From Gemmatimonadota bacterium (GTDB lineage Bacteria; Gemmatimonadota; Gemmatimonadetes; Gemmatimonadales; GWC2-71-9), in the NCBI GenBank assembly GCA_016794825.1, contig JAEUJH010000048.1, forward strand, positions 1 to 34,402: a stretch of DNA of 34,402 bases, given 5' to 3'. The translations under genes were made by a program, and so were the position numbers. This document shows positions 8 to 23,341 of this stretch, piece by piece. Positions within the stretch are counted from its first letter, which is position 1. Each line of letters starts with the position of its first letter. The notes beneath the pieces are model-generated. The model saw only the letters and a list, made by a program, of their open reading frames with translations, did not search any database and was not told the origin of the DNA.

Positions 8-1738
8 ATGCGTTTGCGTGTTGCTCCGGTCGTCCTCGGCATCCTGACTCTCGGTGCGGTCGCTCCTCTCAGCGCGCAGCTGCGCGCCAGCCGCCCGCCG
101 ACTCAGCCGCGCAATCTTCCCCGCCTGCTCGTCGCCAATCCCCACACCTTCAGCGCGGCCGATTCGGCCGCGGCGGTGCGGGTCGGGACGGGGATGCGCG
201 AGAAGATGGAGTCGATCGCGGACAAGTGGTACAACGTGATCCTCCGGAACCAGATGAACGACGCGCTCCTCCAGTACGGGTATCCGGCCGACGCCGTGCT
301 CCCGCCGCTGGTGGCCCGTCAGCTCGGGTCGCAGCTCCAGGCCCGCGCCATCGTCGTCGGGTCGCTGTCACGCGGCGAGGGCGGGCGTCTGACCGTCGAA
401 GCCCGGCTCCTGGCCGGCAACGACCAGACCGGCCACATCGTCTCGATGACGCAGGTGGCGGGGCAAAGCCCCGAGGACTTCGGCGGCAAGCTGGCCGAGT
501 CGCTCCGCGGCGCGTTCGCCGCGCTGCCCGACGCCAAGAACTGCGAGAACTTCTCCGCCACCCAGCCCGCCAAGGCCGTGGAGGCCGCGGCCAAGGCGAT
601 CAAGGCCCAGCCGAACCACGGCCCCGCCGAGTTCTGCCTGGCCCAGCTCGCCACCACTCAGAAGCTGCCGCCCGATTCGATCATCGCGCACTACAAGGCC
701 GCGACGGTCGGCGATCGGCTCAGCCTCGAGGCCTGGGGCGGCCTGCTCGGCCAGTATCAGGCCAAGCACGACACCACCAACATCATCGACACCTACCGTC
801 AGCTGATCCTGGTGGCGCCGAACAACCAGAAGGTCGTCGAGGAAGCCGTCCGGTTCTTCATTTCCGCCGGCAAGCCGGGTCTCGGCGAGGAAATCGCCAA
901 CGACGCGATTTCGCGCGACCCGTCGAACCCCGACATGCAGAACATGCTCGCCACCGCGTGTCTGGTGCAGAGCAAGTGGAAGTGCGCCATTGCCGCCATG
1001 GAGCAGGTCTTCGCGATCGACACCTCGAAGGCCGACACGCTGAATCTCCAGAAGACGGTCTACATCGCCTCGCAGGACACCACCGCGCCGGCGACGCTGA
1101 TCAAGTGGGCCTCGACGGCCAGCAGGAAGTTCCCGACCAACGGGTACTTCCTCGGCGAGTTGATCCGCGGGTATGAGATGGCGGGTCCGGTCGACAGCGT
1201 GCTCGCGGTCACCCGGCGGCTGATCGAAGTCGACAAATCAGACCTCCAGCCGGTCATCCGGGCGGTGCGGGCGCTCATCAAGGAGAAGCGGTACAAGGAG
1301 GCGATCGAGTTCGGGGTCGTCGTCGAGGAGGGCGGGCAGGACAGCGACAAGACCAATCTCGGTATCATCCTGGCTCAGGAGGGCGGGTTGCCGGTCCTCC
1401 AGACCCAGCCGATCGATTTCCCCCTCGCGATGGAACTCGGCAAGCGCGCGTCGGCGTTGCTCAAGCCCGGCAGCCGGGGCCACGTTCTGGCCAACTACGT
1501 GCTCGGGTTCGGCATGATGGGCCAGATTACCGACAAGGACGCCGCGGTCGTCGCCGGCAAGAGCTGCGATCTGGTCGGCGCCCTCGAGACCTGGGTCAAC
1601 GAGACGCTGGCCGCCATGAACGCCGGCAAGGGCGTGTCGGCGGCCACCGAGGCCGACATGGGCCCCCGGATCCAGAGTATCGAGTCGTCGTACCGGCCCC
1701 GGATCGCGCAGATGAAGAAGGCCTATTGTAAGCCGTAG
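8..1738 (+). CDS. Exported TPR-repeat protein with a TolB-like N-terminal region
   Basis: This 576-residue protein starts with a clear Sec signal peptide: two early Arg, a hydrophobic stretch at about residues 5-22, then a probable cleavage near LSAQ. Residues about 110-175 contain VVGSLSRGEGGRLTVEARLL, the style of the TolB/FlgO-like domains that precede TPRs in many exported proteins. From about residue 190 onward the protein is helical and TPR-like, with repeated Ala/Leu-rich helix pairs (for example around APNNQKVVEEAVRFF and RDPSNPDMQNMLATACLVQ). It is probably periplasmic or envelope-attached, acting as a protein-interaction scaffold, but I recognise no specific function. The start at 8 is the first ATG and gives the complete signal peptide. 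The upstream promoter lies outside the window. The 3' end overlaps the -35 box of the following tRNA gene. Confidence 0.8.
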   Translation: MRLRVAPVVLGILTLGAVAPLSAQLRASRPPTQPRNLPRLLVANPHTFSAADSAAAVRVGTGMREKMESIADKWYNVILRNQMNDALLQYGYPADAVLPPLVARQLGSQLQARAIVVGSLSRGEGGRLTVEARLLAGNDQTGHIVSMTQVAGQSPEDFGGKLAESLRGAFAALPDAKNCENFSATQPAKAVEAAAKAIKAQPNHGPAEFCLAQLATTQKLPPDSIIAHYKAATVGDRLSLEAWGGLLGQYQAKHDTTNIIDTYRQLILVAPNNQKVVEEAVRFFISAGKPGLGEEIANDAISRDPSNPDMQNMLATACLVQSKWKCAIAAMEQVFAIDTSKADTLNLQKTVYIASQDTTAPATLIKWASTASRKFPTNGYFLGELIRGYEMAGPVDSVLAVTRRLIEVDKSDLQPVIRAVRALIKEKRYKEAIEFGVVVEEGGQDSDKTNLGIILAQEGGLPVLQTQPIDFPLAMELGKRASALLKPGSRGHVLANYVLGFGMMGQITDKDAAVVAGKSCDLVGALETWVNETLAAMNAGKGVSAATEADMGPRIQSIESSYRPRIAQMKKAYCKP

Positions 1739-1754
1739 GGGCCTCGTCTATATT
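1726..1754 (+). promoter_or_regulatory. Promoter of the tRNA-Asp gene
   Basis: TTGTAA (1726-1731) and TATATT (1749-1754) are separated by exactly 17 bp and lie 18 bp before the mature tRNA 5' end. The -35 hexamer sits inside the last codons of the upstream TPR gene. The -10 region reads TATATTTG, which also fits the TAnnTTTG element known from Bacteroidota promoters. AT-rich hexamers are rare in this GC-rich DNA, which supports the call. Confidence 0.6.
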
Positions 1755-1772
1755 TGCGGGCTCGAAGGACCA

Positions 1773-1847
1773 GGGGCTGTAGCTCAGCTTGGTTAGAGTG
1801 CCGCACTGTCACTGCGGAGGTCGCGGGTTCGAGCCCCGTCAGCCCCG
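1773..1847 (+). tRNA. tRNA-Asp (anticodon GTC)
   Basis: The sequence folds as a complete cloverleaf. The acceptor stem is GGGGCTG (1773-1779) paired with CAGCCCC (1840-1846), with discriminator G1847 as expected for tRNA-Asp. The D arm carries AGCTCAGCTTGGTTAGAGT. The anticodon stem CCGCA/TGCGG encloses the loop CTGTCAC, placing anticodon GTC at 1808-1810. The T arm has the canonical GGTTCGAGCCC. No CCA is encoded, so it must be added after transcription. The gene stands alone between its own promoter and terminator. Confidence 0.97.
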
Positions 1848-1852
1848 TCCCG

Positions 1853-1890
1853 ATCACCCCGCCTCTTTTCGAGGCGGGGTGATTTTCTTT
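1853..1890 (+). terminator. Intrinsic terminator of tRNA-Asp
   Basis: A perfect 13-bp stem pairs 1853-1865 (ATCACCCCGCCTC) with 1871-1883. It has a 5-nt loop TTTTC and is followed by the T-rich tract TTTTCTTT ending at 1890. It starts 5 nt after the tRNA. It is the only strong rho-independent terminator I see in the window, and it ends 5 nt before the rsmH start codon. Confidence 0.92.
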
Positions 1891-1895
1891 CGCCC

Positions 1896-2816
1896 ATGAC
1901 CACCGAGCCGTTCCATCAACCCGTCCTGGCGGACGCCCTCTTTGCCCTCGTGCCCGGCCCGCGGCGGGTCGTCGACTGCACCCTGGGCGACGGTGGTCAC
2001 GCCGCCCTCTTCCTGGCCCGCGGCGCCGAGGTGCTCGGGATCGACCAGGACCCGGAGGCCATCCGCCGGACCCGGGAACGGCTGGGTGGCGATGCCCTTC
2101 GGATCCGGCAGGGGAACGCCTACGACGACGACACCCTCGCCGCCATCGCCGACTTCGGGCCCGATCTGATCCTGCTCGATCTGGGCGTGTCCTCGCGTCA
2201 GCTCGACGATGATCGGCTCGGGTTCAGCTTCCGACCCGGGGTGCCCCTCGACATGCGGATGACCGGAACCGGACCGACCGGCGCCGAGCTCCTCAACGAA
2301 AGTGCCGAGCGGGACCTGGCCACCTGGCTGGCCGACTATGGCGATGAGCCCCGGGCCCGCCGGCTGGCGGCCGAAATCGTCCGCCGGCGGGCCACCCGGC
2401 CGTTCCAGACGGCCGACGACCTGGTCAACGCCATCCGCTCGGCGTTAGGCCCCCGCAGCGGGCCGGCGGATTTCGCCCGGATCTTCCAGGCCATTCGGAT
2501 CGTGGTCAACGACGAACTGGCGGGACTCGAGCGGGCCCTGCCGTCGTTCCGGGACGCGCTGGTGCCGGGCGGGGCCCTTGCGGCGATCAGTTATCATTCG
2601 GGCGAGGATCGTCTCGTCAAGAACGCCTTCCGGGATTGGAGCGCCGCCTGCGTCTGTCCGCCGACTCAACCGATCTGCACCTGTCGCGGTCGTCCGCTCG
2701 GCCGGACCCTGACCCGGCGGCCCGTGGTGGCCTCCGAGGCGGAGGTCGCCGCCAACCCGCGGGCCCGGAGCGCCAAGCTCCGGGTGTTCGAGGTCGCTGA
2801 TGGCGCGGCGTCGTAA
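1896..2816 (+). CDS. rsmH: 16S rRNA m4C1402 methyltransferase RsmH (MraW)
   Basis: RsmH is the SAM-dependent enzyme that N4-methylates C1402 of 16S rRNA and is usually near the head of dcw clusters. The 306-residue length is typical. The N-terminal HQPVL (from H7) is the family start signature and fixes the start codon. The SAM-binding motif DCTLGDGGH lies at residues 27-35. Further family motifs are LLDLGVSSRQLDD, GFSFRPGVPLDMRM, QAIRIVVNDEL and ISYHSGEDRLVK, the last usually SFHSLEDRIVK. The C-terminal CTCRGRP is also typical. There is no Shine-Dalgarno sequence: the ATG follows the tRNA terminator T-tract by 5 nt. No mraZ precedes it. The 3' end overlaps ftsL by 17 nt. Confidence 0.96.
   Translation: MTTEPFHQPVLADALFALVPGPRRVVDCTLGDGGHAALFLARGAEVLGIDQDPEAIRRTRERLGGDALRIRQGNAYDDDTLAAIADFGPDLILLDLGVSSRQLDDDRLGFSFRPGVPLDMRMTGTGPTGAELLNESAERDLATWLADYGDEPRARRLAAEIVRRRATRPFQTADDLVNAIRSALGPRSGPADFARIFQAIRIVVNDELAGLERALPSFRDALVPGGALAAISYHSGEDRLVKNAFRDWSAACVCPPTQPICTCRGRPLGRTLTRRPVVASEAEVAANPRARSAKLRVFEVADGAAS
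2443..2450 (+). repeat. CGTTAGGC motif, copy 1 (in rsmH)
   Basis: A perfect CGTTAGGC lies in rsmH, read Ala-Leu(TTA)-Gly. It belongs to a dispersed set. Other perfect plus-strand copies are at 5026-5033, 9201-9208, 17354-17361, 29650-29657 and 33334-33341. Perfect minus-strand copies are at 12202-12209 and 27520-27527. One-base variants are at 11839-11846 (TGTTAGGC) and 12502-12509 (CGTTAGGT). Confidence 0.8.
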
Positions 2817-3108
2817 GGGCACCGGGCGCTATTGGGTCGCCTTCTGGCTCGGCACCTTCCTCCTGGTGGCGACCGCCGTCGTGGCCCGCCAGAAGGCCGC
2901 GTTCGACACCTCGGGCCGGCTCAACCGGCTCCGGGCCGAGCGCCGGAGCCTCGAATCGCGCCGCCTCGAACTCGAACAGCAGATCCAGGTGGCCTCGAGC
3001 GCCCAGGCTCTCTTGCCCAAGGTGGCCCGGCTCGGGCTCTCCCTCCCGTCGGACACCTCCTCCACCATCCTGGTCGTGGGCGCTGACGGGCGCCCGGAGG
3101 GTCGCTGA
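2800..3108 (+). CDS. ftsL: FtsL-like division protein
   Basis: This 102-residue bitopic membrane protein has a basic cytoplasmic start (ARRRKGTGR), one transmembrane helix at about residues 11-29, and a predicted coiled coil at about 36-65 (LNRLRAERRSLESRRLELEQ). That architecture, plus its position between rsmH and ftsI, identifies FtsL. FtsL forms a complex with FtsB and FtsQ that activates FtsW/FtsI at the septum. FtsL sequences diverge strongly, so the call rests on architecture and synteny. The start ATG lies inside rsmH (17-nt overlap) with GAGG at 2790-2793, six nucleotides upstream, which supports this start. The stop is 2 nt before ftsI. Confidence 0.85.
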   Translation: MARRRKGTGRYWVAFWLGTFLLVATAVVARQKAAFDTSGRLNRLRAERRSLESRRLELEQQIQVASSAQALLPKVARLGLSLPSDTSSTILVVGADGRPEGR

Positions 3109-3110
3109 GG

Positions 3111-5081
3111 ATGGCCAAGCCGGAAGCCCGGATCGGGGCGCTCGAACTGGGGTTTCTCCTCGGCGCCCTCCTGGTCGCCGGCCGAGCCGGGTACCTCCAG
3201 CTGGTCGAAGGGAAGAACTACGCCAAGCAGGCCACGGCGGAGCGTACCGTCCGCCGAGTGCTCGACGCACCCCGGGGTGCGATTTTCGATCGGGGCGGCA
3301 CCCTGCTGGCCGCCTCGCTGGAGCGGTACCGGATCGACATCTCCGGCGAACAGGTCAAGGCCCGCGACTCACTGCTCCGGGTCTACCGCGCCGATGTCGG
3401 ATTCAAGGTCGCCAAGCTGCGCGACGCGCTCCGGGCCAAGGACGACTTCTACGCCCACGGCCCGTTCACGGCGGGGCAGGTTCGCCGCCTTCGCGGGTTT
3501 CGAGGGGTTCACCTGACGCCCGTCTATCGTCGCGAGTATCCCTCCGGGCCGTTGGCCCGGCCGCTGATCGGCGCGTTGTCGCCCGACAGTTCCCGGGGCG
3601 CCTCGGGGCTGGAGCGGTTCCTCGACTCGCTGCTGTCCGGGGTTCCCGGAACCGCCGTCTTCATCAAGGACGGGCAGGGTCGGATCTACGAATCGCCGGG
3701 ACGGGTCGGCAAGGTGCCGGTCAAGGGACACGACGTCGTGCTCACCATCGACGGCGAACTCCAGGAGATCGCCGAAGGGGCGCTCACCGAGGTGTTCCGG
3801 CAATGGTCGCCCCGAAGCGGCGACATCGTGTTCCTCGACCCTCGCACCGGCGAGGTCCTGGCGGCGGCCTCGCGCCAGGTAACCGAGACCGGGACGCAGC
3901 TCGCCAGCGCGTCCTACTTCAACAGTTCGTTCGAACCCGGGTCCACCGCCAAGCCGCTCACGGCGGCCGCGCTCCTGGCGCTCGACCGGGTCAAGCCGCA
4001 GGAAACCGTGGCGCCCGAAAACGGCGTCTGGGCCGTCAAAGGCCGGCCCAGGCCGGTGCGCGACGATCACCCCCAGAAGCATCCGATCAGCCTGGCCCGG
4101 ACCATTCAGGTGTCGAGCAACGTGGGGATCGGGAAGTTCTCGCTCCGGCTCGATCCGGTCGAGCACTACGAAATGCTGCGGGCCTTCGGTCTCGGGACGC
4201 CAACCGGGGTCGAGTTCCCGGGCGAGGATCCCGGCCGGCTGCCCCGGCCGGACCGCTGGAACCCGGTCATCGAGGGGCTCAGCGCGGCCATGGGCTACGC
4301 CATCATGGTGACGCCGGTCCAACTGGCGGCCGCCTACGGCGCGATTGCGAACGACGGCATCCTGATGGCGCCCACGTTGATCAAGGAGGTCCGGGCGCCG
4401 GACGGGTCGATCATCCATCAGCACGAACCGCTCGCCATTCGGCGGGTCATCTCGAGCGAGGTGGCGGCGACGCTGCGCCAGTACCTCGCGCTGTCCGCCG
4501 CCGATTCCGGCACCGGCGGTCAGGCCCAGGTCAAAGGCACCGTGCTCGGCAAGACGGGCACGGCCCGGCTGGTCAAGAACCGCCGGTACACCGACGAGCA
4601 CGCGGCGTCGTTCGCGGGGATGTACCCGGCCCGGGATCCGCAACTCGTGTTCGTGGTCCGGATCGAACGGCCCCAAGGCGACTACTACGGCGGCCTGGTG
4701 GCGGCGCCGGTGGTGCAGTCGATGCTCCGTCAGGCGCTGTCAGCCCGGCGGACGTCGCTCGACCGGGTCCGCCTGGCGGAGGATCGGGTTCCCGGGGCGC
4801 CGAAGCAGGCAGACCGGCCGGCCGGGAAGACGCCGCCGGCGCCACGCAGTTGGGTCGCGCTCCCGGTGGCCGCCCGGACCGCGCGACCGAGTCAGATTCG
4901 CGAGGTGCCCGACGTGGTGGGGCAGCCGGTCCGGACCGCCGCGGCCTCGCTCCATCGGCGCGGCTTCCAGGTCCGACTCGAGGGCGCCGGGGTGGTGCAG
5001 CGAACCGTCCCCGCCGCCGGCGATTCGTTAGGCACCGGCAAGGCGGTCACCCTGGTCGCCAGCCGGGGGAGGTCCTCATGA
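3111..5081 (+). CDS. ftsI: Septal peptidoglycan transpeptidase FtsI (PBP3 type) with a C-terminal PASTA domain
   Basis: FtsI cross-links septal peptidoglycan in the periplasm as the partner of FtsW. The 656-residue protein has an N-terminal membrane anchor (about residues 10-28), a pedestal domain including APRGAIFDRGG, and a transpeptidase domain. The three active-site motifs are intact: S278-T-A-K281 (nucleophile Ser278), S335-S-N337 and K481-T-G. A Pro/Ala-rich linker leads to one PASTA domain from about residue 597 (VPDVVGQPV) to the end. PASTA domains are typical of Gram-positive PBPs and of some deep-branching diderms, and are absent from E. coli FtsI. GGAGG at 3096-3100 serves as the ribosome binding site. 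The stop overlaps the murE start by 4 nt (ATGA). The PASTA region carries one copy of the CGTTAGGC motif (5026-5033). Confidence 0.95.
   Translation: MAKPEARIGALELGFLLGALLVAGRAGYLQLVEGKNYAKQATAERTVRRVLDAPRGAIFDRGGTLLAASLERYRIDISGEQVKARDSLLRVYRADVGFKVAKLRDALRAKDDFYAHGPFTAGQVRRLRGFRGVHLTPVYRREYPSGPLARPLIGALSPDSSRGASGLERFLDSLLSGVPGTAVFIKDGQGRIYESPGRVGKVPVKGHDVVLTIDGELQEIAEGALTEVFRQWSPRSGDIVFLDPRTGEVLAAASRQVTETGTQLASASYFNSSFEPGSTAKPLTAAALLALDRVKPQETVAPENGVWAVKGRPRPVRDDHPQKHPISLARTIQVSSNVGIGKFSLRLDPVEHYEMLRAFGLGTPTGVEFPGEDPGRLPRPDRWNPVIEGLSAAMGYAIMVTPVQLAAAYGAIANDGILMAPTLIKEVRAPDGSIIHQHEPLAIRRVISSEVAATLRQYLALSAADSGTGGQAQVKGTVLGKTGTARLVKNRRYTDEHAASFAGMYPARDPQLVFVVRIERPQGDYYGGLVAAPVVQSMLRQALSARRTSLDRVRLAEDRVPGAPKQADRPAGKTPPAPRSWVALPVAARTARPSQIREVPDVVGQPVRTAAASLHRRGFQVRLEGAGVVQRTVPAAGDSLGTGKAVTLVASRGRSS
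5026..5033 (+). repeat. CGTTAGGC motif, copy 2 (in ftsI)
   Basis: A perfect copy in the PASTA region of ftsI, read Ser-Leu(TTA)-Gly. Confidence 0.8.
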
Positions 5082-6547
5082 GCCGACCCACGGGGGCCGA
5101 CCTGCTCCAGGCGCTCGGCCGCGACGACCTTCTGGTCTCCGGCCCCGCCACGCTGCCGCTCATCCTCGGCGTGACGACCGACAGCCGGGAAGTGGCCCCC
5201 GGCTCGCTCTTCGTGGCCGTCCGCGGCTCCCAGGTCGACGGCCACCGCTACCTGACCGACGCGGTCCGGGCCGGGGCCGCCGCGGTGGTGGTCGAGGCCG
5301 CCCAGCCGGACCTCGGCGTTCCAGTCGTCGTGGTTCGCGACGGACGCCGGGCGGCCATCGCCCTCGCGCGCGCCTGGTACGGCGATCCGGCCCGGCACCT
5401 CTCCCTGATCGGCGTGACCGGCACCAGCGGCAAGACGACCACGACGCTGCTGATCCGCCATCTCCTGAACGAGCAGGGCACCGCCGGCAGCATCGGGACC
5501 CTGGGCGCGTTCGACGGCGCCGGCCGCGCCATTCCGTCGACCGCCGGCTCGTTGACGACGCCGGGCCCGGTGGACCTTCAGGCCACGCTGGCCGGGCTGG
5601 TGTCGGCGGGCGTCGAACGGGTGGCGATGGAGACCTCGTCCCATTCGCTCGACCAGGGACGGCTCGACGGGCTCGCGTTCGACGGCGCCATCTTCACCAA
5701 CCTGAGCCGCGAACATCTCGACTACCACCCGACGATGGACGACTATCGCCGGGCCAAGCTCGGCCTGCTCGACCTGCTGGCGCCCGGGGGCGTCGTGGCG
5801 GTCAACCGCGACGATCCGGCCTGGCACGACCTGGCCGCGCGGCCGGACGCGATCACCTTCGGCGTCGACCCGACCGCCAAGGTCCGGGCCGAGGGCGTGG
5901 TCCTGCTCCCGGCGGAGAGCCGGTTCACCCTGACCGGCCCCTACGGAACGGCCGAGGTGACGATTCCGCTCCCCGGCGAATTCAACGTCGCCAATGCTCT
6001 CGGCGCCGCGGCCTGCGCTCTCGGTCTCGGCCTCCCGTTCGACCACGTGGTCGCCCGACTGGGCACGGCGCCCCAGGTGCCGGGCCGGATGGAACGGCTG
6101 GCCGAGCGACCCTGTCTGGTCATTCGCGACTACGCCCACAAACCGGACGCGCTCGAGCGGGTGCTCGACACCCTCCGCCCGATCACGTCGGGACGCCTCA
6201 TCGTCCTGTTCGGGTGCGGCGGTGATCGCGACAAGGGCAAGCGGCCGATCATGGGGCAGCTTGCCGCGGAGCGAGCCGACCTCGTCGTCGTCACCTCGGA
6301 CAACCCGCGAACCGAGGATCCCGAACGGATCATCGACGACATCGTGGCCGGCATCCCGCCGGGCACCGCCTTTCAACGGATCCCGGACCGGCGCGAGGCC
6401 ATCCGCCGGACACTGGCCGACGTCGTCAGTGGCGACACCGTGGTCCTGGCGGGCAAGGGTCACGAGACCTACCAGATCATCGGCAAGCAGTACCTCCCGT
6501 TCGACGAACGCGAGATCGTCGCTGACGTGCTTGGCGGCCGGTCCTGA
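5078..6547 (+). CDS. murE: UDP-MurNAc-L-Ala-D-Glu:meso-diaminopimelate ligase MurE
   Basis: MurE adds the third stem-peptide residue in the cytoplasm, consuming ATP. The product is 489 residues. The ATP-binding motif is G115-T-S-G-K119-T. Other Mur ligase signatures are METSSHSLDQGR, FTNLSREHLDYH with the conserved YRRAK(L) Lys that is normally carbamylated, and RDYAHKPDALE. D408-N-P-R411 is the motif that selects meso-DAP rather than lysine, so the peptidoglycan should be of the A1-gamma type. KGHETYQ closes the C-terminal domain. The same frame stays open far upstream, but the start is set at 5078 by GGGGGAGG at 5066-5072, by the 4-nt overlap with ftsI, and by the family N-terminus. The stop overlaps the murF ATG by one base (TGATG). 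Confidence 0.96.
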   Translation: MSRPTGADLLQALGRDDLLVSGPATLPLILGVTTDSREVAPGSLFVAVRGSQVDGHRYLTDAVRAGAAAVVVEAAQPDLGVPVVVVRDGRRAAIALARAWYGDPARHLSLIGVTGTSGKTTTTLLIRHLLNEQGTAGSIGTLGAFDGAGRAIPSTAGSLTTPGPVDLQATLAGLVSAGVERVAMETSSHSLDQGRLDGLAFDGAIFTNLSREHLDYHPTMDDYRRAKLGLLDLLAPGGVVAVNRDDPAWHDLAARPDAITFGVDPTAKVRAEGVVLLPAESRFTLTGPYGTAEVTIPLPGEFNVANALGAAACALGLGLPFDHVVARLGTAPQVPGRMERLAERPCLVIRDYAHKPDALERVLDTLRPITSGRLIVLFGCGGDRDKGKRPIMGQLAAERADLVVVTSDNPRTEDPERIIDDIVAGIPPGTAFQRIPDRREAIRRTLADVVSGDTVVLAGKGHETYQIIGKQYLPFDEREIVADVLGGRS

Positions 6548-7890
6548 TGCGGTGGACCGACCGGGCGGTCCGTTCCGCCCTCGATCTTGGCGCTGGCTCG
6601 GATGACCTGGTCTACTCCGGCATCGTCACCGATACCCGAACACTCGGCCCCGGCGCCCTGTTCGTGGCGCTCTCCGGTGAGCGGTTCGATGGCCACACGT
6701 TCCTCGACCAGGCCCGGGCAGCCGGCGCCTCCGGCGCGGTGGTTCGAACCGGCACGCCGAAGGTGGCGGGCATGGTGTGGTACGAAGTGGCGGATCCCCT
6801 TCGCGCCTACGGCCTGTTGGCGCGCCACCGACGGCGGATGCTGACCGGGCCGGTCGTGGCGGTGACCGGCACCAACGGCAAGACGTCGACCAAGGAGATG
6901 CTGGCCGCCGCGCTCAGCACCCGGTTCCGGGTGCACGCCACCCGGAAGAACCTCAACAACCTGGTCGGCGTGCCGCAGACCATTCTCGAGGCTCCGGACG
7001 ACATCGAGGCCCTGGTCGTGGAGGCGGGCGCCAATCTGCCCGGCGAGATCGCCCGGTATCGGGAGATCATCGAGCCGTCGATCGCCGTCGTCACCAACGT
7101 CGCCGCCGGCCATCTCGAGGGCTTCGGCTCGCTCGAGGGGGTCCGCCGGGAAAAGCTATCGCTGGTGGCCGGGGTTCCGGTCGCGATCATCGGCGGGACC
7201 GACCCGGCGGTGGCGGCTGATGCGCGGGCCTTGGCCGGGCGGGTGGTGACGGCGGGCCTGCCGCCGGCCGACGTGGCCCCGAGCCGAGCCGTCCTCGACA
7301 GCAGCGGCCGGCCGGAGGTGACGTTCGACGGCATCACGTTCGTGGTGGGGCAACTGGGTCTTCACCAGGCGGCCAACGCCGCGCTGGTCTGGGCCGTGGG
7401 TCGCGAACTCGGGCTCGACCCGGAGGCGGTGGCGCGGGCGCTCGAGGCGGTTACCATTCCGGACGGACGGGGCCAGCTGACCCAGTACGGTGGCCTCACC
7501 GTTCTCAACGACAGCTATAACGCCAACCCCGCCTCGTTCCGGGCGCTGATCGATCTGGTCGGGCGGATCCGGGGTGGCCGCCGTCTGGTGTTCGTGGCCG
7601 GGACCATGCGGGAACTGGGCCCGGACGCGGCGCGGTTGCACCAGGACATCGCCGAGCGGCTGGCGGCGCTCGAACCGGACGTCCTCGGCGCCGTGGGCGA
7701 GTTCGGCGCCGCCCTGGCGCCGTACGCGGGCCATCTGGGTGCCCGACTGATCACGGCTCCGGACGCGCCCGCCATGGCGGACGCGCTGATGGGCCAACTG
7801 AAGGGCGACGAACTCGTGGTCCTCAAGGGCTCGCGAGGGGTCGCGTTGGAGCGGATCATCCCGGCATTGACTTCACGAATCGCGCACTAG
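6547..7890 (+). CDS. murF: UDP-MurNAc-tripeptide:D-Ala-D-Ala ligase MurF
   Basis: MurF attaches D-Ala-D-Ala to complete the UDP-MurNAc pentapeptide. The 447-residue length is typical. The P-loop is G108-T-N-G-K112-T-S. LNNLVGVPQTIL, VEAGAN and VVTNVAAGHLEGFGS are family signatures, and LNDSYNANPASF with FVAGTMRELG marks the C-terminal domain. The ATG overlaps the murE stop by one base, so translation is probably coupled. No ddl gene for making D-Ala-D-Ala lies in this cluster, so it must be elsewhere. alr, the source of D-Ala, is at 28863. Confidence 0.96.
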   Translation: MRWTDRAVRSALDLGAGSDDLVYSGIVTDTRTLGPGALFVALSGERFDGHTFLDQARAAGASGAVVRTGTPKVAGMVWYEVADPLRAYGLLARHRRRMLTGPVVAVTGTNGKTSTKEMLAAALSTRFRVHATRKNLNNLVGVPQTILEAPDDIEALVVEAGANLPGEIARYREIIEPSIAVVTNVAAGHLEGFGSLEGVRREKLSLVAGVPVAIIGGTDPAVAADARALAGRVVTAGLPPADVAPSRAVLDSSGRPEVTFDGITFVVGQLGLHQAANAALVWAVGRELGLDPEAVARALEAVTIPDGRGQLTQYGGLTVLNDSYNANPASFRALIDLVGRIRGGRRLVFVAGTMRELGPDAARLHQDIAERLAALEPDVLGAVGEFGAALAPYAGHLGARLITAPDAPAMADALMGQLKGDELVVLKGSRGVALERIIPALTSRIAH

Positions 7891-7902
7891 AGTCGAGACC
7901 CG

Positions 7903-9030
7903 ATGCTCTATCATCTGCTGGCTCCGCTGGGCCGCGACTACATCATCTTCAATCTGTTCAACTACATCAGCTTTCGGGCGGCCGGCGCGGTGGTGACGGC
8001 GCTCCTGATCGCGTTCGCGGCCGGGCCGGCGATCATCGCCAAGCTCCAGGCGCTCAAGGTCGGGCAGGTGGTCCGCACTGGACTGCTCGCCAACCACGAG
8101 GTCAAGCGGGGCACGCCAACGATGGGCGGGTTCATCATCCTGCTCGCGACCGTGGTCCCGACGCTGCTGTGGGCCCCGTTGACCAATCGATTCGTGCTGG
8201 TGGCCATCCTGGCCACGCTCTGGACCGGCGCCATCGGGTTCCTGGACGACTACCTCAAGGTGGTGCAGGGCAAGCCGCGCGGCCTGGTGGCTCGCTGGAA
8301 GCTGATCGGGCAGATGACGTTCGGGATCGCGCTCGGACTCTACCTCTGGCTCCAGCCGGTGGTGCCCGAAACGACCCTGCCGGCCACCGCGACCGTGCTG
8401 CCGTTCCTCAAGTACACCGTGGTCCTCTTCCTGCCGGTGGCGTACATCGGGTTCGTCACCTTCGTGGTGACCGGCAGCAGCAACGCGGTCAACATGACCG
8501 ACGGGCTCGACGGCCTGGCGACGGGTCTGACCGCGATCGCCGCCGCGACCTTCGCGTTCTTCGCGTACCTGTTCGGCCGGATCGACACCACCACCTACCT
8601 CAACTTCTACTACCTCCCCGGGGCGGGCGAGCTGACCGTGTTCTGCGCGGCCCTGATGGGCGGCGCCCTCGGCTTCCTGTGGTTCAACGCCCACCCGGCC
8701 CAGGTCTTCATGGGCGACACCGGCAGCCTGGCGATCGGCGGCGCCCTCGGCACCGTGGCCATCCTGCTCCGGGCCGAGTTCCTCCTCCTGCTCATCGGTG
8801 GAGTGTTCGTGGCGGAGCAGGTCTCGGTCATCCTCCAGATGGGCGTCTACAAGTGGTTCAAGCGGACCCGCGGCCGGGAATACGCCGACGCCCATCGGGT
8901 CTTCCGGATGGCGCCGCTCCATCATCACTTCGAGAAGAAGGGCTGGCCGGAGACCCAGGTCGTGGTCCGGTTCTGGATTCTCGGCCTGCTCTGCGCCCTG
9001 GTGGCGCTGGCGACGCTCAAGGTCCGGTAG
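7903..9030 (+). CDS. mraY: Phospho-MurNAc-pentapeptide transferase MraY
   Basis: MraY is a polytopic inner-membrane enzyme that transfers phospho-MurNAc-pentapeptide to undecaprenyl phosphate, forming lipid I. The 375-residue protein has about ten hydrophobic segments. Catalytic and Mg2+-binding motifs are visible: D115-D116 in GFLDDYLKV, NMTDGLDGLATG with D200 and D203, FMGDTGS with D272, and the HHH loop H340-H342 in APLHHHFEKKGWPE. KRGTPTMGG near the N-terminus is also diagnostic. It begins 12 nt after the murF stop with only a weak purine-rich stretch upstream. murD follows after 4 nt. Confidence 0.97.
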   Translation: MLYHLLAPLGRDYIIFNLFNYISFRAAGAVVTALLIAFAAGPAIIAKLQALKVGQVVRTGLLANHEVKRGTPTMGGFIILLATVVPTLLWAPLTNRFVLVAILATLWTGAIGFLDDYLKVVQGKPRGLVARWKLIGQMTFGIALGLYLWLQPVVPETTLPATATVLPFLKYTVVLFLPVAYIGFVTFVVTGSSNAVNMTDGLDGLATGLTAIAAATFAFFAYLFGRIDTTTYLNFYYLPGAGELTVFCAALMGGALGFLWFNAHPAQVFMGDTGSLAIGGALGTVAILLRAEFLLLLIGGVFVAEQVSVILQMGVYKWFKRTRGREYADAHRVFRMAPLHHHFEKKGWPETQVVVRFWILGLLCALVALATLKVR

Positions 9031-9034
9031 CCGG

Positions 9035-10387
9035 ATGGGCCTGCTGGACGTTCCCGGGCGGACCGGTGAGGTCGCGGTGGTCGGACTGGGCCGGAGCGGC
9101 TCGGCCGCCACGCGCCTGATCCGGGCGGCCGGCGTCGAGGTCTATGCCTCCGACGGCGGGAACGGCGCGGGACTCGAGGCCACCGCCGCGGCGCTCCGGG
9201 CGTTAGGCGCTGACGTCCAGGTTGGCGGACACGACCTCGGCCGGATCGCGGCCGCCCGGCTGGTGGTGCTGTCGCCCGGGGTGCCGCCGAGCGCGCCACC
9301 GGTCCAGGCCGCCCGGGACGCGGGCGTCCCGATCTGGGCCGAGGCCGAACTCGGGCTCCGGGTGTTGGGCGACGACCTGCCGTACGTGGCGATCACCGGC
9401 ACCAACGGCAAGACCACGACCACGGCGCTGGTGGGCCAGCTGCTCGAGGCCGCCGGGCGGCGCGCCCGGACGGCGGGGAACATCGGCACGCCGCTCTGCG
9501 AGATCGCGCTCGCGGCGGAACGGCCGGACGTCCTGGCGGTCGAACTGTCGAGTTTCCAGCTGCACGACATGCCGACCGTTCGTCCCACCGTCGGCGTCCT
9601 CACCAACCTCGCGCCCGATCACCTCGACCGGTACCCGAGCCTCGAGGACTACTACGGCGACAAGCTCCGGATGTTCGCCAACGCCTCGGCCGATTCCTTC
9701 TGGATCACCAATGGCGACGATCCCGAATCGGAACGGTGGGTGCCGGCCACCCGAGGCCGTCGGCGCCGCTTCTCCACCAGCGGCCCGGCGGACGGTTGGT
9801 TCGACCGGACCACCACCGCGCTCCGGATCGGTGATGTCCCGGTCATCGATCGGGCCAAGTTCCCCCTCCTGGGCGACCACAACGTGGCCAACGCGCTGGC
9901 CGCCGCGCTGGCGGTTCACGCCATCGGCGTCCCGGTCGCGGCGATCACGGCGGGCCTTGGACGGGCGGCGGCGCTGAAGCACCGAATGGAGCCGATCCGG
10001 GAGGTCGGCGGGGTGCTGTGGCTCAACGACTCCAAGGCCACCAACATCTCGTCGACGGAAGTGGCGATCGCCGCGATGGACCGCCCCTTCGTGCTGCTCC
10101 TCGGCGGGCGCCACAAGGGCGAGCCATACACCCGGTTGGCCGATCGGCTGGGACGGTGCCGGGCGGTGATCGCCTATGGCGAGGCCAAGCCGCTCATCGT
10201 CGCGGATTTGCGCGGGTCGGTCGACGTGGTCGAGGGCGGCAGCTTCGACGACGTCATGGCCCGGGCCGCCGGGCTGGCCCGTCCGGGCGACGCGGTGCTG
10301 CTGTCGCCGGCGTGCTCGAGCTACGACATGTTCGCCAACTACGAGGAACGGGGGGCCCGCTTCCGGGCCATCGTGGAGGGGATGTGA
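9035..10387 (+). CDS. murD: UDP-MurNAc-L-Ala:D-glutamate ligase MurD
   Basis: MurD adds D-Glu as the second stem-peptide residue. The product is 450 residues. The N-terminal VAVVGLGRSGSAATRLI is the family's nucleotide-fold start and supports the ATG at 9035 over the longer open frame that begins inside mraY. The P-loop is G122-T-N-G-K126-T-T. Other signatures are GNIGTPL, VELSSFQLHDM, NLAPDHLDRYPSLEDYY, NDSKATN, LLGGRHKG and LSPACSSYDMF. It carries a CGTTAGGC motif at 9201-9208, read as Ala-Leu-Gly with a TTA codon. The stop TGA overlaps the GTG start of ftsW by 4 nt. Confidence 0.96.
   Translation: MGLLDVPGRTGEVAVVGLGRSGSAATRLIRAAGVEVYASDGGNGAGLEATAAALRALGADVQVGGHDLGRIAAARLVVLSPGVPPSAPPVQAARDAGVPIWAEAELGLRVLGDDLPYVAITGTNGKTTTTALVGQLLEAAGRRARTAGNIGTPLCEIALAAERPDVLAVELSSFQLHDMPTVRPTVGVLTNLAPDHLDRYPSLEDYYGDKLRMFANASADSFWITNGDDPESERWVPATRGRRRRFSTSGPADGWFDRTTTALRIGDVPVIDRAKFPLLGDHNVANALAAALAVHAIGVPVAAITAGLGRAAALKHRMEPIREVGGVLWLNDSKATNISSTEVAIAAMDRPFVLLLGGRHKGEPYTRLADRLGRCRAVIAYGEAKPLIVADLRGSVDVVEGGSFDDVMARAAGLARPGDAVLLSPACSSYDMFANYEERGARFRAIVEGM
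9201..9208 (+). repeat. CGTTAGGC motif, copy 3 (in murD)
   Basis: A perfect copy in murD, read Ala-Leu(TTA)-Gly. Confidence 0.8.
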
Positions 10388-11514
10388 GCGCTTCGACCAT
10401 CGAACATCCCGGCGAAGTCCGGTGGGAAACCCGGCTCTTGGCGGTCGTCGCCGCGACCCTCACCGTGTTCGGCATTGCCAGCGTCTACTCGGCGGCGAGC
10501 TTCCACAGCGCGGGCCTCCGCGAGGTCCTGAAGCAGCTGTCCGGCGCCGCGATCGGCGGGGTGGCGATGATGGTGGCGGCGCGGCTCGACTACCAGCGGT
10601 GGCGGGATGGGGCCTGGCTGCTCCTCGGGTTCACGGTGGCGCTGCTGGTGCTCCTGCTGATTCCGGGCCTCGGATCGATCGCGCCCGAGGTCAACGGCGC
10701 CCGGCGCTGGATCCGGTTTCCGGGCGGGACGTTCCAGCCCTCGGAACTGGCCCGGTTCGCGATCGTGGTGTGGGCGTCGATGATCGCGGCCAAGAAGGGC
10801 GAGCAGATCCGGGACTTCAAGAAGGGGGTTGCCCCGGTCCTGGTCATCACCGCCTCGGTGTCGCTGCTGGTGCTGGTGGAGCCGAACCTGTCGATGGCCA
10901 CGGTCATCGCGCTCCTGGGTGGGGTGGTGCTCTTCACGGCCGGGGCTCGAATCGGGCAGTTCATGCTGCTCGGCGTGGCCGGCCTGTTCGCCGCGGTGGC
11001 CGCCATCGTGGCGGAGCCGTACCGCTTCCAGCGGGTCCGCTGCTTCTTCGGCCTCGCGTCCGATTGCCAGGCGGGGACCTCGTGGCAGCTCACCGAGGCC
11101 ACCAAGGGCTTCGGCGCCGGCCGGCTCTTCGGGGTCGGGTTCGGCGAGGGGCAGCTCAAGCTCGACTATCTCCCGATCGCCTCGTCCGACTTCCTCTTCG
11201 CCACCGTCGGCGAGGAGTGGGGTTTCCTGGGCGTGCTGTTCGTCATCCTCCTGTTCGGGATCTTCTGCTGGCTCGGGTTCCGGATCGCCCGGACGGCGCC
11301 GGATCCGTTCGGGCGCTACCTGGCCACCGGGTTGACCGCCGCGGTCGGGCTGTCGGCGCTGATGCACATGGCGGTCAACATGGGCCTGATGCCGACGACC
11401 GGGCTGGCGTTGCCGTTCATGTCGTCGGGGCGGGCGAGCCTGCTGGTGACCCTCCTCACCGTCGGGGTGCTGATCAGCGTCGGTCGGATGCGGGGCCGAC
11501 CGGTGAGTCGATGA
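10384..11514 (+). CDS. ftsW: Septal peptidoglycan glycosyltransferase FtsW (SEDS family)
   Basis: FtsW polymerises lipid II into septal glycan strands with FtsI. The 376-residue protein has about ten hydrophobic segments. ARRWIRFPGGTFQPSELARF is the SEDS signature, and SDFLFATVGEEWGFLG holds the catalytic-type Asp (D269). The start is the GTG at 10384, giving VSASTIEHPG before the first helix and a 4-nt GTGA overlap with murD. One oddity is the C-terminal SEDS signature, usually LPF-x-S-Y-G-G-S-S. Here it reads LPFMSSGRAS, with Arg350 in place of the second conserved Gly. RodA is less likely because of the dcw position. The stop overlaps murG by 4 nt. Confidence 0.93.
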   Translation: MSASTIEHPGEVRWETRLLAVVAATLTVFGIASVYSAASFHSAGLREVLKQLSGAAIGGVAMMVAARLDYQRWRDGAWLLLGFTVALLVLLLIPGLGSIAPEVNGARRWIRFPGGTFQPSELARFAIVVWASMIAAKKGEQIRDFKKGVAPVLVITASVSLLVLVEPNLSMATVIALLGGVVLFTAGARIGQFMLLGVAGLFAAVAAIVAEPYRFQRVRCFFGLASDCQAGTSWQLTEATKGFGAGRLFGVGFGEGQLKLDYLPIASSDFLFATVGEEWGFLGVLFVILLFGIFCWLGFRIARTAPDPFGRYLATGLTAAVGLSALMHMAVNMGLMPTTGLALPFMSSGRASLLVTLLTVGVLISVGRMRGRPVSR

Positions 11515-12671
11515 CCGCTCCGCCCCCGAAGAACCGCGACTCGGCCGCCCGGCGGACGGTGCTGATCGCCGGGGGCGGCACCGGCGGGCACCTGATGCCG
11601 GCGCTCGCGATCGCCGCCGCGCTGCGGAGCCGCCACCCGGATTGGCGGATCGTGATGGTCGGGGCGGAGCGGGGGGTCGAGGCGCAGCTCCTCCCGACCC
11701 GGGACTTTCCGTTCCATCTGCTGCCGTTCGAACCGATCTACCGCCGGCAGTGGTGGCGGAACGCGCGGTGGCCGTGGCTGGCCCTGACGCTGCTGCGGCG
11801 GTGCGGCCGGCTCCTGACCGACGAGCGGCCCGACCTGGTGTTAGGCACGGGCGGCTACGCCTCCGGCCCGATCGTGTGGGCCGCGGCGCGCCGGGGCATC
11901 CCGACGGCCATCCTGGAGCAGGACGCGTTTCCGGGGCTGGTGACCCGGTGGCTCGCTCCGCGGGTCCGCGAGGTGTTCCTGGGCGCCCCCGAGGCCGCCC
12001 GCCACCTCCGGGGCGGGCCGCGGACCACCGTCACGGTCACCGGAAGCCCGATCGCGCCGCCGACGCCGGAGCGGGCCGCCGCGGCCCGGGCCCGGTTCGG
12101 GATCGAGGGTGGACCCGTGGTCCTGGTAATGGGCGGGAGCCAGGGGTCGGTGGCCATCAACGAGCGGATCGCGGGGTGGATCGACGGCGGGGGCGCGGAC
12201 CGCCTAACGGTCATCTGGGCCACCGGCCGGGCCAGCGCCGAGCGCTTCCGCCGCTACCACCGGCCGCCGCGGGTGACGGTGGTCGACTTCCTCGATCCGG
12301 CGGCCGACGGCTACGCGGTGGCGGATCTGGTGGTGGCGCGGGCCGGGATGATGACGATCGCCGAGATCTGCGCCTGGGGCCTGCCGAGCATCCTGATTCC
12401 GCTCCCGACCGCCGCGGCCGACCACCAGACCCGCAACGCCGAGGCGATGGCGGCGGCGGGGGCGGCGGTGATGCTGCGCCAGGCCGACGTCAGCGCCGAG
12501 TCGTTAGGTGCCGAGATCGCCCGGCTCCTCGCCGATCCGGCGGCGTTGGCGGCGCTCCGGAGGGGGGCCACCGGCCGGGGAAGGCCGAGGGCGGTGGACG
12601 AGATCGTCGACCGGCTCGACCGGCTGTCCGGAACCACCGAGGGGACCCCGGTCCGCCTTTCCCAAGCCTAG
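11511..12671 (+). CDS. murG: UDP-GlcNAc:lipid I GlcNAc transferase MurG
   Basis: MurG is a GT28 glycosyltransferase at the cytoplasmic face of the membrane that converts lipid I to lipid II. The 386-residue product has the N-terminal donor-independent motif GGGTGGHLMPALA, GTGGYASGPIVWAAA, EQDAFPGLVTRWLAP, VMGGSQGSVAIN, and the UDP-GlcNAc-binding ARAGMMTIAE and PTAAADHQTRNA. The last two usually read RSGA-T-E and P-A-DHQ. The ATG at 11511 overlaps the ftsW stop by 4 nt. The gene contains three TTAGG-type motifs within 670 bp: 11840-11846, a minus-orientation copy at 12202-12209, and the variant CGTTAGGT at 12502-12509. Confidence 0.95.
   Translation: MTAPPPKNRDSAARRTVLIAGGGTGGHLMPALAIAAALRSRHPDWRIVMVGAERGVEAQLLPTRDFPFHLLPFEPIYRRQWWRNARWPWLALTLLRRCGRLLTDERPDLVLGTGGYASGPIVWAAARRGIPTAILEQDAFPGLVTRWLAPRVREVFLGAPEAARHLRGGPRTTVTVTGSPIAPPTPERAAAARARFGIEGGPVVLVMGGSQGSVAINERIAGWIDGGGADRLTVIWATGRASAERFRRYHRPPRVTVVDFLDPAADGYAVADLVVARAGMMTIAEICAWGLPSILIPLPTAAADHQTRNAEAMAAAGAAVMLRQADVSAESLGAEIARLLADPAALAALRRGATGRGRPRAVDEIVDRLDRLSGTTEGTPVRLSQA
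12202..12209 (-). repeat. CGTTAGGC motif, copy 4 (inverted, in murG)
   Basis: A perfect copy on the minus strand. On the coding strand it is GCCTAACG, read Arg-Leu(CTA)-Thr, so the motif appears in a different coding phase and with another rare Leu codon. Confidence 0.8.
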
Positions 12672-12680
12672 GCGCCATTT

Positions 12681-12688
12681 TAGATTAG
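12681..12688 (+). promoter_or_regulatory. Possible internal promoter -10 element before murC
   Basis: TAGATT (12681-12686) lies in the 27-bp gap between murG and murC, the largest break since ftsI in an otherwise overlapping run. The local segment CATTTTAGATTAG is strikingly AT-rich for this DNA. A start about 7 nt after the hexamer would leave a leader of only about 6 nt before the murC ATG. I see no convincing -35 hexamer. Confidence 0.35.
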
Positions 12689-12698
12689 CCCATCAGGG

Positions 12699-14072
12699 AT
12701 GAACCTGTTTCTCCAGTCCGATTCCCGGCCACTCCACTTCGTGGGGGCCGGGGGAGCCGGGATGAGCGCGTTAGCATTGGTCGCGCTCCGCCGGGGGATG
12801 CGGGTTACCGGGTCGGACGCCGATCTGGCCGGCGTCGGCGACCTGATCGCCCGGGGCGCCCAGATCGCCAAGGGGAGCGCGCCGCGGCTGGCGGCCGAAG
12901 CGCGGGCGGTCATTGCCAGCGCCGCCATTCCGGCCGGGCATCCCGACCTGGTGGAAGCCGCCGCGCACGGGGTGCCGGTCGTGCCGCGGAAGGTGGCGTT
13001 GGCCGGATTGATCGGGTCGGCCACCTGCGTGGCGATTGCCGGCACCCACGGCAAGACCACCACCACCGTCATGACCACCGGGGCCCTGGTCGGCGCCGGG
13101 CTCGATCCGACGGGTTTGGCGGGCGGGCGGGTGCCGGAATGGGGTGGCAACGCGCGGCTTGGCGGCACCGATTTGTTCGTGGTCGAAGCGGACGAATACG
13201 ATCAGGCCTTCCTGACCCTGACGCCGACGGTGGCGGTCATCAACAACGTCGAGCCCGATCACCTCGAGTGCTACGGCTCGGTCGAGGCCATGGAAGCCGC
13301 CTACGTTCGGTTTGCCGGCTCCGCCCGGCGGATCCTGGTGGGCAATGATGGCGTCGGCTCGGATCGGGTGGCAGCCGGACTCGACCCGGCCCGCGTCTGG
13401 CGATTCGGCCCCGGGGCCGAAGGGGTCGGCCTGACCGACATCTTCCTGGGGGCGGAGGAGAGCCGGGCGGTGGTCCGCCTGGCGGATGGCCGGTCAGTGC
13501 CGCTCAGCCTGGCGGTGCCGGGCCTCCACAACCTCCGCAACGCCACCGCCGCGCTGGGCGCGGTGGTAGCCCTCGGGGCCGATCCGGTCAAGGCGGCCGC
13601 GGCGCTGGGGCAGTTCCGCGGCGTGGGCCGGCGGTTCGAGCGGGTTGGATCGGCCTGGGGCGTGACGGTGGTGGACGACTACGCCCATCACCCGACCGAA
13701 CTCGGCGCGACGTTGGCGGCGGCACGACAGGCGTTTCCGGGACGGCGTCTGGTGGCGGTGTTCCAACCCCACCTCTACAGCCGGACCGCGCTCCACGCCG
13801 AGGCCATGGGCGCGGCGCTGGCGGCGGCCGACTTGGTCATCGTGGCCGACGTCTACGGAGCCCGCGAGGCGCCACTCCCCGGGGTCACCGGCGATCTGGT
13901 CGCCGAGGCCGCCCGACAGAAGGGCGCCGCGGTCCGCTACCAGCCGGCCCGGACCGCCCTCGCGGCCGAAGTGCTGACCGAAGTCGAACCCGGCGACGTC
14001 GTCGTGACCCTCGGCGCCGGCGACGTGACCCGAGTGGGACCTGAGGTTCTCGGAGAGCTGGAGGCGCGGTGA
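12699..14072 (+). CDS. murC: UDP-MurNAc:L-alanine ligase MurC
   Basis: MurC starts the stem peptide by adding L-Ala to UDP-MurNAc. The 457-residue length is typical. HFVGAGGAGMSALA is the N-terminal dinucleotide-like fold. GTHGKTTTTVM is the P-loop with the His that distinguishes MurC and Mpl from the other ligases. VVEADEYDQAFL, INNVEPDHLECYG, VVDDYAHHPTE and FQPHLYSRT are all MurC signatures. It is separated from murG by 27 nt holding a possible promoter. The TTA codon at 12771 lies in GTTAGCA, the only in-frame TTA found outside a TTAGG motif. The stop overlaps the GTG start of ftsQ by 4 nt. Confidence 0.96.
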   Translation: MNLFLQSDSRPLHFVGAGGAGMSALALVALRRGMRVTGSDADLAGVGDLIARGAQIAKGSAPRLAAEARAVIASAAIPAGHPDLVEAAAHGVPVVPRKVALAGLIGSATCVAIAGTHGKTTTTVMTTGALVGAGLDPTGLAGGRVPEWGGNARLGGTDLFVVEADEYDQAFLTLTPTVAVINNVEPDHLECYGSVEAMEAAYVRFAGSARRILVGNDGVGSDRVAAGLDPARVWRFGPGAEGVGLTDIFLGAEESRAVVRLADGRSVPLSLAVPGLHNLRNATAALGAVVALGADPVKAAAALGQFRGVGRRFERVGSAWGVTVVDDYAHHPTELGATLAAARQAFPGRRLVAVFQPHLYSRTALHAEAMGAALAAADLVIVADVYGAREAPLPGVTGDLVAEAARQKGAAVRYQPARTALAAEVLTEVEPGDVVVTLGAGDVTRVGPEVLGELEAR

Positions 14073-14740
14073 AGCGGTGGCTCGTCCGGGCCGGCGTCGC
14101 GGCCGGCCTGGTGGCGTTGTGGTTCCTGACCCCGCTCCTCCTCCGCCGGATGAGCGTGTTCCGGATCCGACGGGTGGACGTCACGGGCTCGCGGTTCCTG
14201 ACCGCCGCCGAGGTGGCCAAGGTGGCCGACTTGCCGCCCGGCACCAGCCTCTTCGACGACGTCGAACCGGCGCGGCGACGGGTGCTCGGGATCCGCGGGG
14301 TAGCTCGGGTAACCGTCCACCGCCGGCTGCCGGGAGCGCTCGAGTTCGAGATCGAGGAGTTCGCGCCGGTGGCGCTGGCCCGGTCCGAGGGCAAACTGGT
14401 GTTGGTGGATCGACGGGGCAGGGTGTTACCGTTCGACCCGACCCGGGCACCGACCGACCTCCCGATCGGCGAGGCCGATTCCGCGGTGGCGGGGTTGCTC
14501 GAGCGGATCCAGGATGCCGAACCGGAATTTGCCCAGACCGTACTGAGTGCCGAACGGGATCGCAACGTCATCGTGCTGGAAACGTCGAAACACCGACTTC
14601 TTTTCAGGGTGGGGGCCACCACGAAGCACATTCAAGGGGCGGCGGCGGTGCTGACCGAGCTGACCCGACGCCAGCTGACCGTGTCCGAGGTGGACGCGCG
14701 GTTCGACGGACGGATCATCGTCCGGGGGCGGGGCGCGTGA
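14069..14740 (+). CDS. ftsQ: Division protein FtsQ/DivIB
   Basis: This 223-residue bitopic protein has a single transmembrane helix at about residues 7-24 after a short basic start. A POTRA-type domain follows (about 28-100): FRIRRVDVTGSRFLTAAEVAKV continues into LFDDVEPARRRVLGIRGVARVTVHRRLPG, the classical FtsQ pattern. A beta domain with LVDRRGRVLPF comes next. FtsQ links FtsL and FtsB and regulates FtsWI at the septum. Its position between murC and ftsA is standard, except that ddl and murB, often found here, are missing. It starts with GTG, overlapping murC by 4 nt, and its own stop overlaps the ftsA GTG by 4 nt. Confidence 0.9.
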   Translation: MKRWLVRAGVAAGLVALWFLTPLLLRRMSVFRIRRVDVTGSRFLTAAEVAKVADLPPGTSLFDDVEPARRRVLGIRGVARVTVHRRLPGALEFEIEEFAPVALARSEGKLVLVDRRGRVLPFDPTRAPTDLPIGEADSAVAGLLERIQDAEPEFAQTVLSAERDRNVIVLETSKHRLLFRVGATTKHIQGAAAVLTELTRRQLTVSEVDARFDGRIIVRGRGA

Positions 14741-15990: not shown

Positions 15991-16012
15991 GCTCGAGAGG
16001 ATCGATTAGGCC

Positions 16013-18456: not shown

Positions 18457-18468
18457 GCCAAGCCTCAC

Positions 18469-20259: not shown

Positions 20260-20293
20260 GTTCCCCCCGGGGCCGACGCCAGGCCGCCCCGAC

Positions 20294-20301
20294 TAGATTT
20301 G
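20294..20301 (+). promoter_or_regulatory. Probable -10 element of ftsY, positioned for a leaderless mRNA
   Basis: TAGATTTG ends 4 nt before the ftsY ATG (20306). With a normal distance of about 7 nt from the hexamer TAGATT, transcription would begin at the start codon itself. It matches the TAnnTTTG element of Bacteroidota promoters. I see no -35 hexamer at the expected distance, and there is no Shine-Dalgarno before ftsY. Confidence 0.45.
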
Positions 20302-20305
20302 CCTC

Positions 20306-21241: not shown

Positions 21242-21268
21242 GGCCGGCCGGGCAGCGGATCGTCCCTC

Positions 21269-23341
<2,073 letters not shown>

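Follow-up and report, generated by a model that had tools for sequence, protein, structure and literature searches.

The dcw genes of this Gemmatimonadota genome begin directly behind a tRNA-Asp gene and a terminator-like hairpin, and the adjacency of tRNA-Asp and rsmH is not due to chance but is a trait of the family. The dcw run probably forms the 3' portion of a transcription unit headed by the tRNA, being fed by readthrough from the tRNA promoter. The position of tRNA-Asp before rsmH is real and conserved, and comparison of sequences makes readthrough the likely mechanism. If this is true, cell division and wall synthesis would be tied to tRNA transcription across a whole bacterial family in which no mraZ was found, and relatives with and without tRNA-Asp offer a natural comparison. 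The window, meaning the whole stretch of DNA that was analysed (34,402 nucleotides), has the following features at this locus.

8 to 1738, plus strand: TPR-repeat protein gene (576-aa open reading frame with TPR matches)
1726 to 1754, plus strand: predicted sigma-70-like promoter of tRNA-Asp, TTGTAA-17-TATATT (sequence scan; conserved over 80 relatives)
1773 to 1847, plus strand: tRNA-Asp (GTC) (ARAGORN; Rfam RF00005, 67.1 bits)
1852 to 1884, plus strand: terminator-like hairpin of 14 pairs, 9 of them G-C (fold of -27.8 kcal/mol)
1883 to 1890, plus strand: T-rich tail TTTTCTTT, its first two T paired within the hairpin
1896 to 2816, plus strand: rsmH (16S rRNA C1402 N4-methyltransferase), first gene of the dcw run (profile matches)
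2800 to 3108, plus strand: ftsL-like gene (weak FtsL_Actino match, 24.1 bits, under the cut-off of 55)
3111 to 5081, plus strand: ftsI-like transpeptidase gene (SpoVD/PBP2-type matches, all under equivalog cut-offs)
From 5078, 6547 and 7903: open reading frames read by eye as murE, murF and mraY

RsmH matches TIGR00006 at equivalog level (238.3 bits, cut-off 154.3) and PF01795 above cut-off (260.5 bits). Because the profile matches start at residue 5-6 and no in-frame ATG, GTG or TTG occurs 5' of the start up to the stop at -102, the ATG at 1896-1898 is the right start. A preliminary description of this DNA had placed the end of the T-run at 1890 and the ATG at 1896, in agreement with the sequence, where the five bases CGCCC separate the two. 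The TPR gene is co-directional with tRNA-Asp and ends 34 bases before it.

The family search covered 102 genomes, of which 92 carried rsmH, and 88 rsmH loci were read; the relatives from the rsmH scan of the window's genome were mostly Gemmatimonadetes MAGs. tRNA-Asp, or its 3' end alone where the contig begins there or ARAGORN missed the tRNA, lies directly upstream of rsmH in 87 of the 88 loci, and at these loci a co-directional tRNA stands right before the first protein gene, as in a tRNA-led operon. In the remaining locus, L113, a group II intron match occupies the place of the tRNA, and the stretch of contig read contains no tRNA. This RF00029 match (42.8 bits; L113:1030-1096, minus strand, on the same contig as L047:99-165, plus strand) sits just before rsmH, where the tRNA terminator is expected. 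Class C group II introns prefer terminators.

The usual leader gene of dcw is mraZ, which encodes a regulator of the cluster. None of 121 genomes of the order and none of 61 of the family yielded it, whereas 41 of 101 did so at the level of the phylum (the samples overlap); by eye, it precedes rsmH in L061, L066 and L070. The dcw run here has neither mraZ nor a visible promoter of its own. From the two layouts, we infer that the tRNA may have taken the place of a dedicated dcw promoter.

Sigma-70-like promoters were scored against shuffled sequences at 80 loci, over the 70 bases just 5' of the tRNA and across the gap from the tRNA to rsmH. Left out of this set were L106, L113, L115, L128 and L134, where ARAGORN gave no tRNA-Asp; L116, L136 and L149 were left out of the start, promoter and -10 comparisons because the His motif was not found. 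The score before the tRNA had a mean z of 2.9 over the 80 loci, and this conserved sequence points to a promoter upstream of the tRNA, again as in a tRNA-led operon. Nothing sigma-70-like appeared in the 80 gaps, which scored like shuffled sequence (mean z 0.01; the window's best gap score has z -1.4). The tRNA side outscored the gap in 76 loci and the gap scored higher in 4. This comparison used the sigma-70 consensus, which is blind to promoters for other sigma factors, and covered the two flanks of the conserved tRNA body, within which a promoter would escape. The motif TANNNT occurs near the tRNA in 78/80 loci (22-base stretch, without a shuffle control) and near the rsmH start in 12/75 (13-base stretch), against 8.6 in shuffles (sd 2.5), so -10 boxes close to the start of rsmH are about as common as chance predicts. 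Eight of these 12 are all the loci of genus g28, where the motif falls within the T-rich tail. The discriminator of the tRNA promoter is 83% G+C over the 80 loci. G+C-rich discriminators accompany stringent control, which this one would suit.

Twenty Gemmatimonas-type loci, chosen for the absence of tRNA-Asp, served as a positive control. A strong promoter precedes rsmH in 14 of them (TTGACG-18 with TAACAT, TATCAT or TACTAT) and is absent from 6. Since the same scan detects these promoters in loci without the tRNA, a dedicated rsmH promoter would be seen. Among the Gemmatimonas-type loci, L042 and L055 have a long open reading frame in the TPR position, and in L042, L043, L049, L052, L056 and others ATCACATC and GGGTAATGCACAT-like blocks recur some 100-250 bases 5' of rsmH, ahead of the TTGACG promoter; these blocks are possibly regulator sites.

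A hairpin lies between tRNA and rsmH in all 87 tRNA-linked loci, with folding energies from -17 to -36 kcal/mol; the shuffle control for hairpins in such G+C-rich gaps covers the window, where the leader 1848-1945 folds more stably than all 200 shuffles (z -3.6) into the hairpin and a weakly paired region round the AUG. Among 75 loci with canonical starts, 28 have the rsmH start no more than 15 bases from the foot of the hairpin, and the tight spacing in the window (11 bases) is part of this family-wide range. The hairpin had been described as a strong terminator. Its stem is strong, and a G+C-rich hairpin with a T-run has the make-up of an intrinsic terminator, but the tail is imperfect, with 5 T among its first 8 bases, and its score of 2.91 falls inside the span of 0.93-3.1 for the genome's ten scored tRNA ends (tRNA-Asp and nine others; an eleventh tRNA end has no hairpin). 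A specially leaky tRNA-Asp terminator was considered and dropped, the tail being no weaker than those of the genome's other tRNAs. That the hairpin is not marked as leaky counts against readthrough.

Readthrough is nevertheless the probable feed of the run, because no dcw promoter of its own was seen and because the run sits directly behind a tRNA and a stop signal. RNA polymerase would start from the promoter at 1726-1754, near 1761 and about 12 bases before tRNA-Asp. Most polymerase would halt at the hairpin and yield tRNA, and a fraction would read through into rsmH, ftsL, ftsI and onward; the balance between tRNA and mRNA would be set by the hairpin. If the transcript is cut at the tRNA 3' end, the mRNA would keep some 48 bases of leader, most of it hairpin, and ribosomes would load without a Shine-Dalgarno (SD) sequence on the short U-rich stretch before the AUG. 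The dcw genes may in this way be coupled to growth rate.

The earlier statement that rsmH lacks an SD sequence is borne out, with an anti-SD pairing energy of +0.6 kcal/mol, i.e. none, at -16 to -4. The 18-base stretch from -20 to -3 pairs at -6.0 kcal/mol, which we take to be due to GGGG in the hairpin's own 3' arm. The oddity implied for such a start is not: by the wider measure, 6 of 11 other window starts (starts of open reading frames, putative genes) have weaker pairing than random 18-mers of the window show on average (-3.47). After this comparison the missing SD was dropped as an anomaly, and an SD-less start looks ordinary in the window's genome. Of the four genus mates read, L083 (-5.6 kcal/mol), L004 (-4.0) and L084 (-3.3) carry an SD, weak or better, 5' of rsmH, and L003 has none (+0.6 kcal/mol).

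The preliminary description had named two possible mechanisms, transcription past the tRNA terminator or a leaderless mRNA from a promoter that overlaps the hairpin. The comparison of relatives favors the former, as the conserved promoter is the tRNA's alone. Under the latter, a promoter overlapping the hairpin and T-run would start transcription at or near 1896. The ATG five bases past the T-run, the lack of an SD and the TANNNT 16 to 4 bases before the chosen start in 8/8 g28 loci would fit, though in g28 the motif lies in the T-rich tail. The gap, however, scores like shuffled sequence, and over 75 loci a -10 near the start, where a leaderless mRNA would need one about 7-12 bases before the start codon, is about as frequent as chance. 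An SD is useful only with a leader, so leaderless transcription misfits the genus as a whole, three of whose four other members read carry one, and we consider it very unlikely. No paper on leaderless mRNA in Gemmatimonas was found in the literature.

Somewhat less improbable, though still unlikely, is an rsmH promoter of an unrecognised kind, read by another sigma factor or placed inside the tRNA gene, with a leader running through the hairpin. The scans cover the sigma-70 consensus only, and the portion of PMC6511841 available describes a precedent, promoter P2 at the metY 3' side. Gemmatimonas-type promoters are of the sigma-70 kind, however, and the gap is very variable among relatives, which by eye have only the hairpin and an occasional SD in common. 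There is also little chance that transcripts from the TPR gene, or from still farther 5', are the main supply of rsmH, or that promoters within the run serve the later dcw genes. The TPR gene does point toward rsmH and ends close before the tRNA, but its transcripts must also cross the hairpin, and no plus-strand sigma-70-like site besides the tRNA promoter was found in 1700-21300 of the window, in a scan reaching no farther 5' than 1200. Readthrough from the tRNA promoter thus stays the preferred reading.

The start codon of rsmH takes an unusual form in part of the family. The RsmH tree (without L149 and L150, which are short) contains a well-supported clade of 28 rows from 9 genera (support 100/97) in which a canonical start codon is often absent. 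The tree was used for the clade only, its start labels being faulty (L116 is marked startless despite its ATG, and L133 and L094 are marked canonical for a far TTG). Starts were sought from the conserved His back over 45 bases, or as far as a stop codon, with slots hand-set in nine loci. ATG, GTG and TTG are absent from this stretch in 10 of the 28 members, and the start slot is ACG in nine of these and ACA in L141. Altogether, ACG fills the slot in 21 of 28 members, and its share of the Thr codons within the bodies of these RsmH genes is 44%; the accompanying binomial P (0.0036) takes no account of relatedness, and kinship inflates the counts. The median SD energy is -7.6 at the 21 ACG slots versus -2.2 at the 57 other rsmH starts of the family. 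A strong SD and an ACG slot with no canonical codon within 45 bases are found together in L024, L110, L113, L016, L105, L109, L136, L122 and L129.

Among these nine genomes only L024 and L113 are without any ATG, GTG or TTG in the open frame. In the remaining seven such a codon stands farther 5': a GTG within the tRNA, in frame, in L016, L105, L109, L110 and L122, an ATG in L129 (-90) and a TTG in L136 (-63). Against ACG as the start stand the ACA of L141 and the AGT of L144 in the slot, the ACC preceded by TTG one codon earlier in L017, L088, L090, L091 and L123, the GTG also offered by g28 and g31, the ATG of L130, and TTG at -33 in L094 and at -39 in L133. Outside the clade, L013 rsmH possibly has another odd start, a CTG that lies 12 bases 5' of the conserved His and has an SD energy of -6.1; the one canonical codon in frame is GTG, at -63.

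Two comparisons of open reading frames on six genomes, aimed at a more general use of ACG starts around rsmH, flagged 328/758 and 76/130 and were swamped by shadow reading frames and conserved overlaps, so that they carry no weight. In a small test of 19 ortholog groups, 14 share a canonical start column and 5 do not. rsmH is among the five, with 0/5 members canonical, and by eye we judged the other four to be alignment or tRNA-overlap cases. A start of rsmH at ACG behind a strong SD is plausible in the clade from these sequences. infC was read at 41 loci (L199-L239) from 57 genomes with infC: 33 have CTG only at the expected place, 6 have CTG and a nearby canonical codon, including L239 from the window's own genome, L218 has TTG only, and 1 is without the motif. 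By sequence, a conserved CTG thus seems to be the start codon of infC in the window's family.

C1402, the base that RsmH methylates, lies in the ribosomal P site. Loss of rsmH in E. coli is reported to impair GUG and UUG initiation and to raise AUU initiation (work cited in the preprint PMC13317604; review PMC7694415). Ribosomes without the C1402 mark might relax start-codon choice and so make more RsmH from ACG, a loop like that of IF3 on infC. That rsmH is doubly tied to the translation machinery, by leakage from the tRNA promoter and by an ACG start with such an autogenous loop in the clade, is a tentative idea that we hold to be possible though doubtful; the loop would not concern the window's own rsmH, which starts with ATG. 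If the ACG start is real, rsmH would join infC as a gene of initiation fidelity whose start codon is deliberately poor. The literature on ACG initiation codons held no natural bacterial ACG start by title, and for rsmH with an ACG start codon reviews alone were found.

Known non-canonical starts, in the text available of PMC5472188, are ATT for infC in E. coli, ATC for infC in Streptomyces and GTC for Streptomyces sigR. The clade rsmH resembles these in combining a strong SD with a codon other than ATG, GTG or TTG, and infC bears on start-codon choice. It differs in the codon (ACG), in the gene (rsmH) and in being a prediction from the sequences of one clade of relatives.

The order rsmH, ftsL, ftsI downstream is that of an mraZ-led dcw cluster, whereas the head is tRNA-Asp in an order without mraZ in the genomes sampled; among the matches listed for mraZ literature in Gemmatimonadetes, none treats dcw by title. 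The closest precedent, by analogy, is E. coli metY-nusA-infB, in which, as far as the available part of PMC6511841 goes, a tRNA gene and its promoters lead an mRNA operon with terminators between, a promoter lies at the tRNA 3' side and two terminators precede rimP. That case warns of a possible extra promoter at the tRNA 3' side. The locus described here differs from it in having a dcw operon, tRNA-Asp, a single hairpin and no promoter visible in the gap, and is like it in that a tRNA gene and its promoter are predicted to head an mRNA operon.
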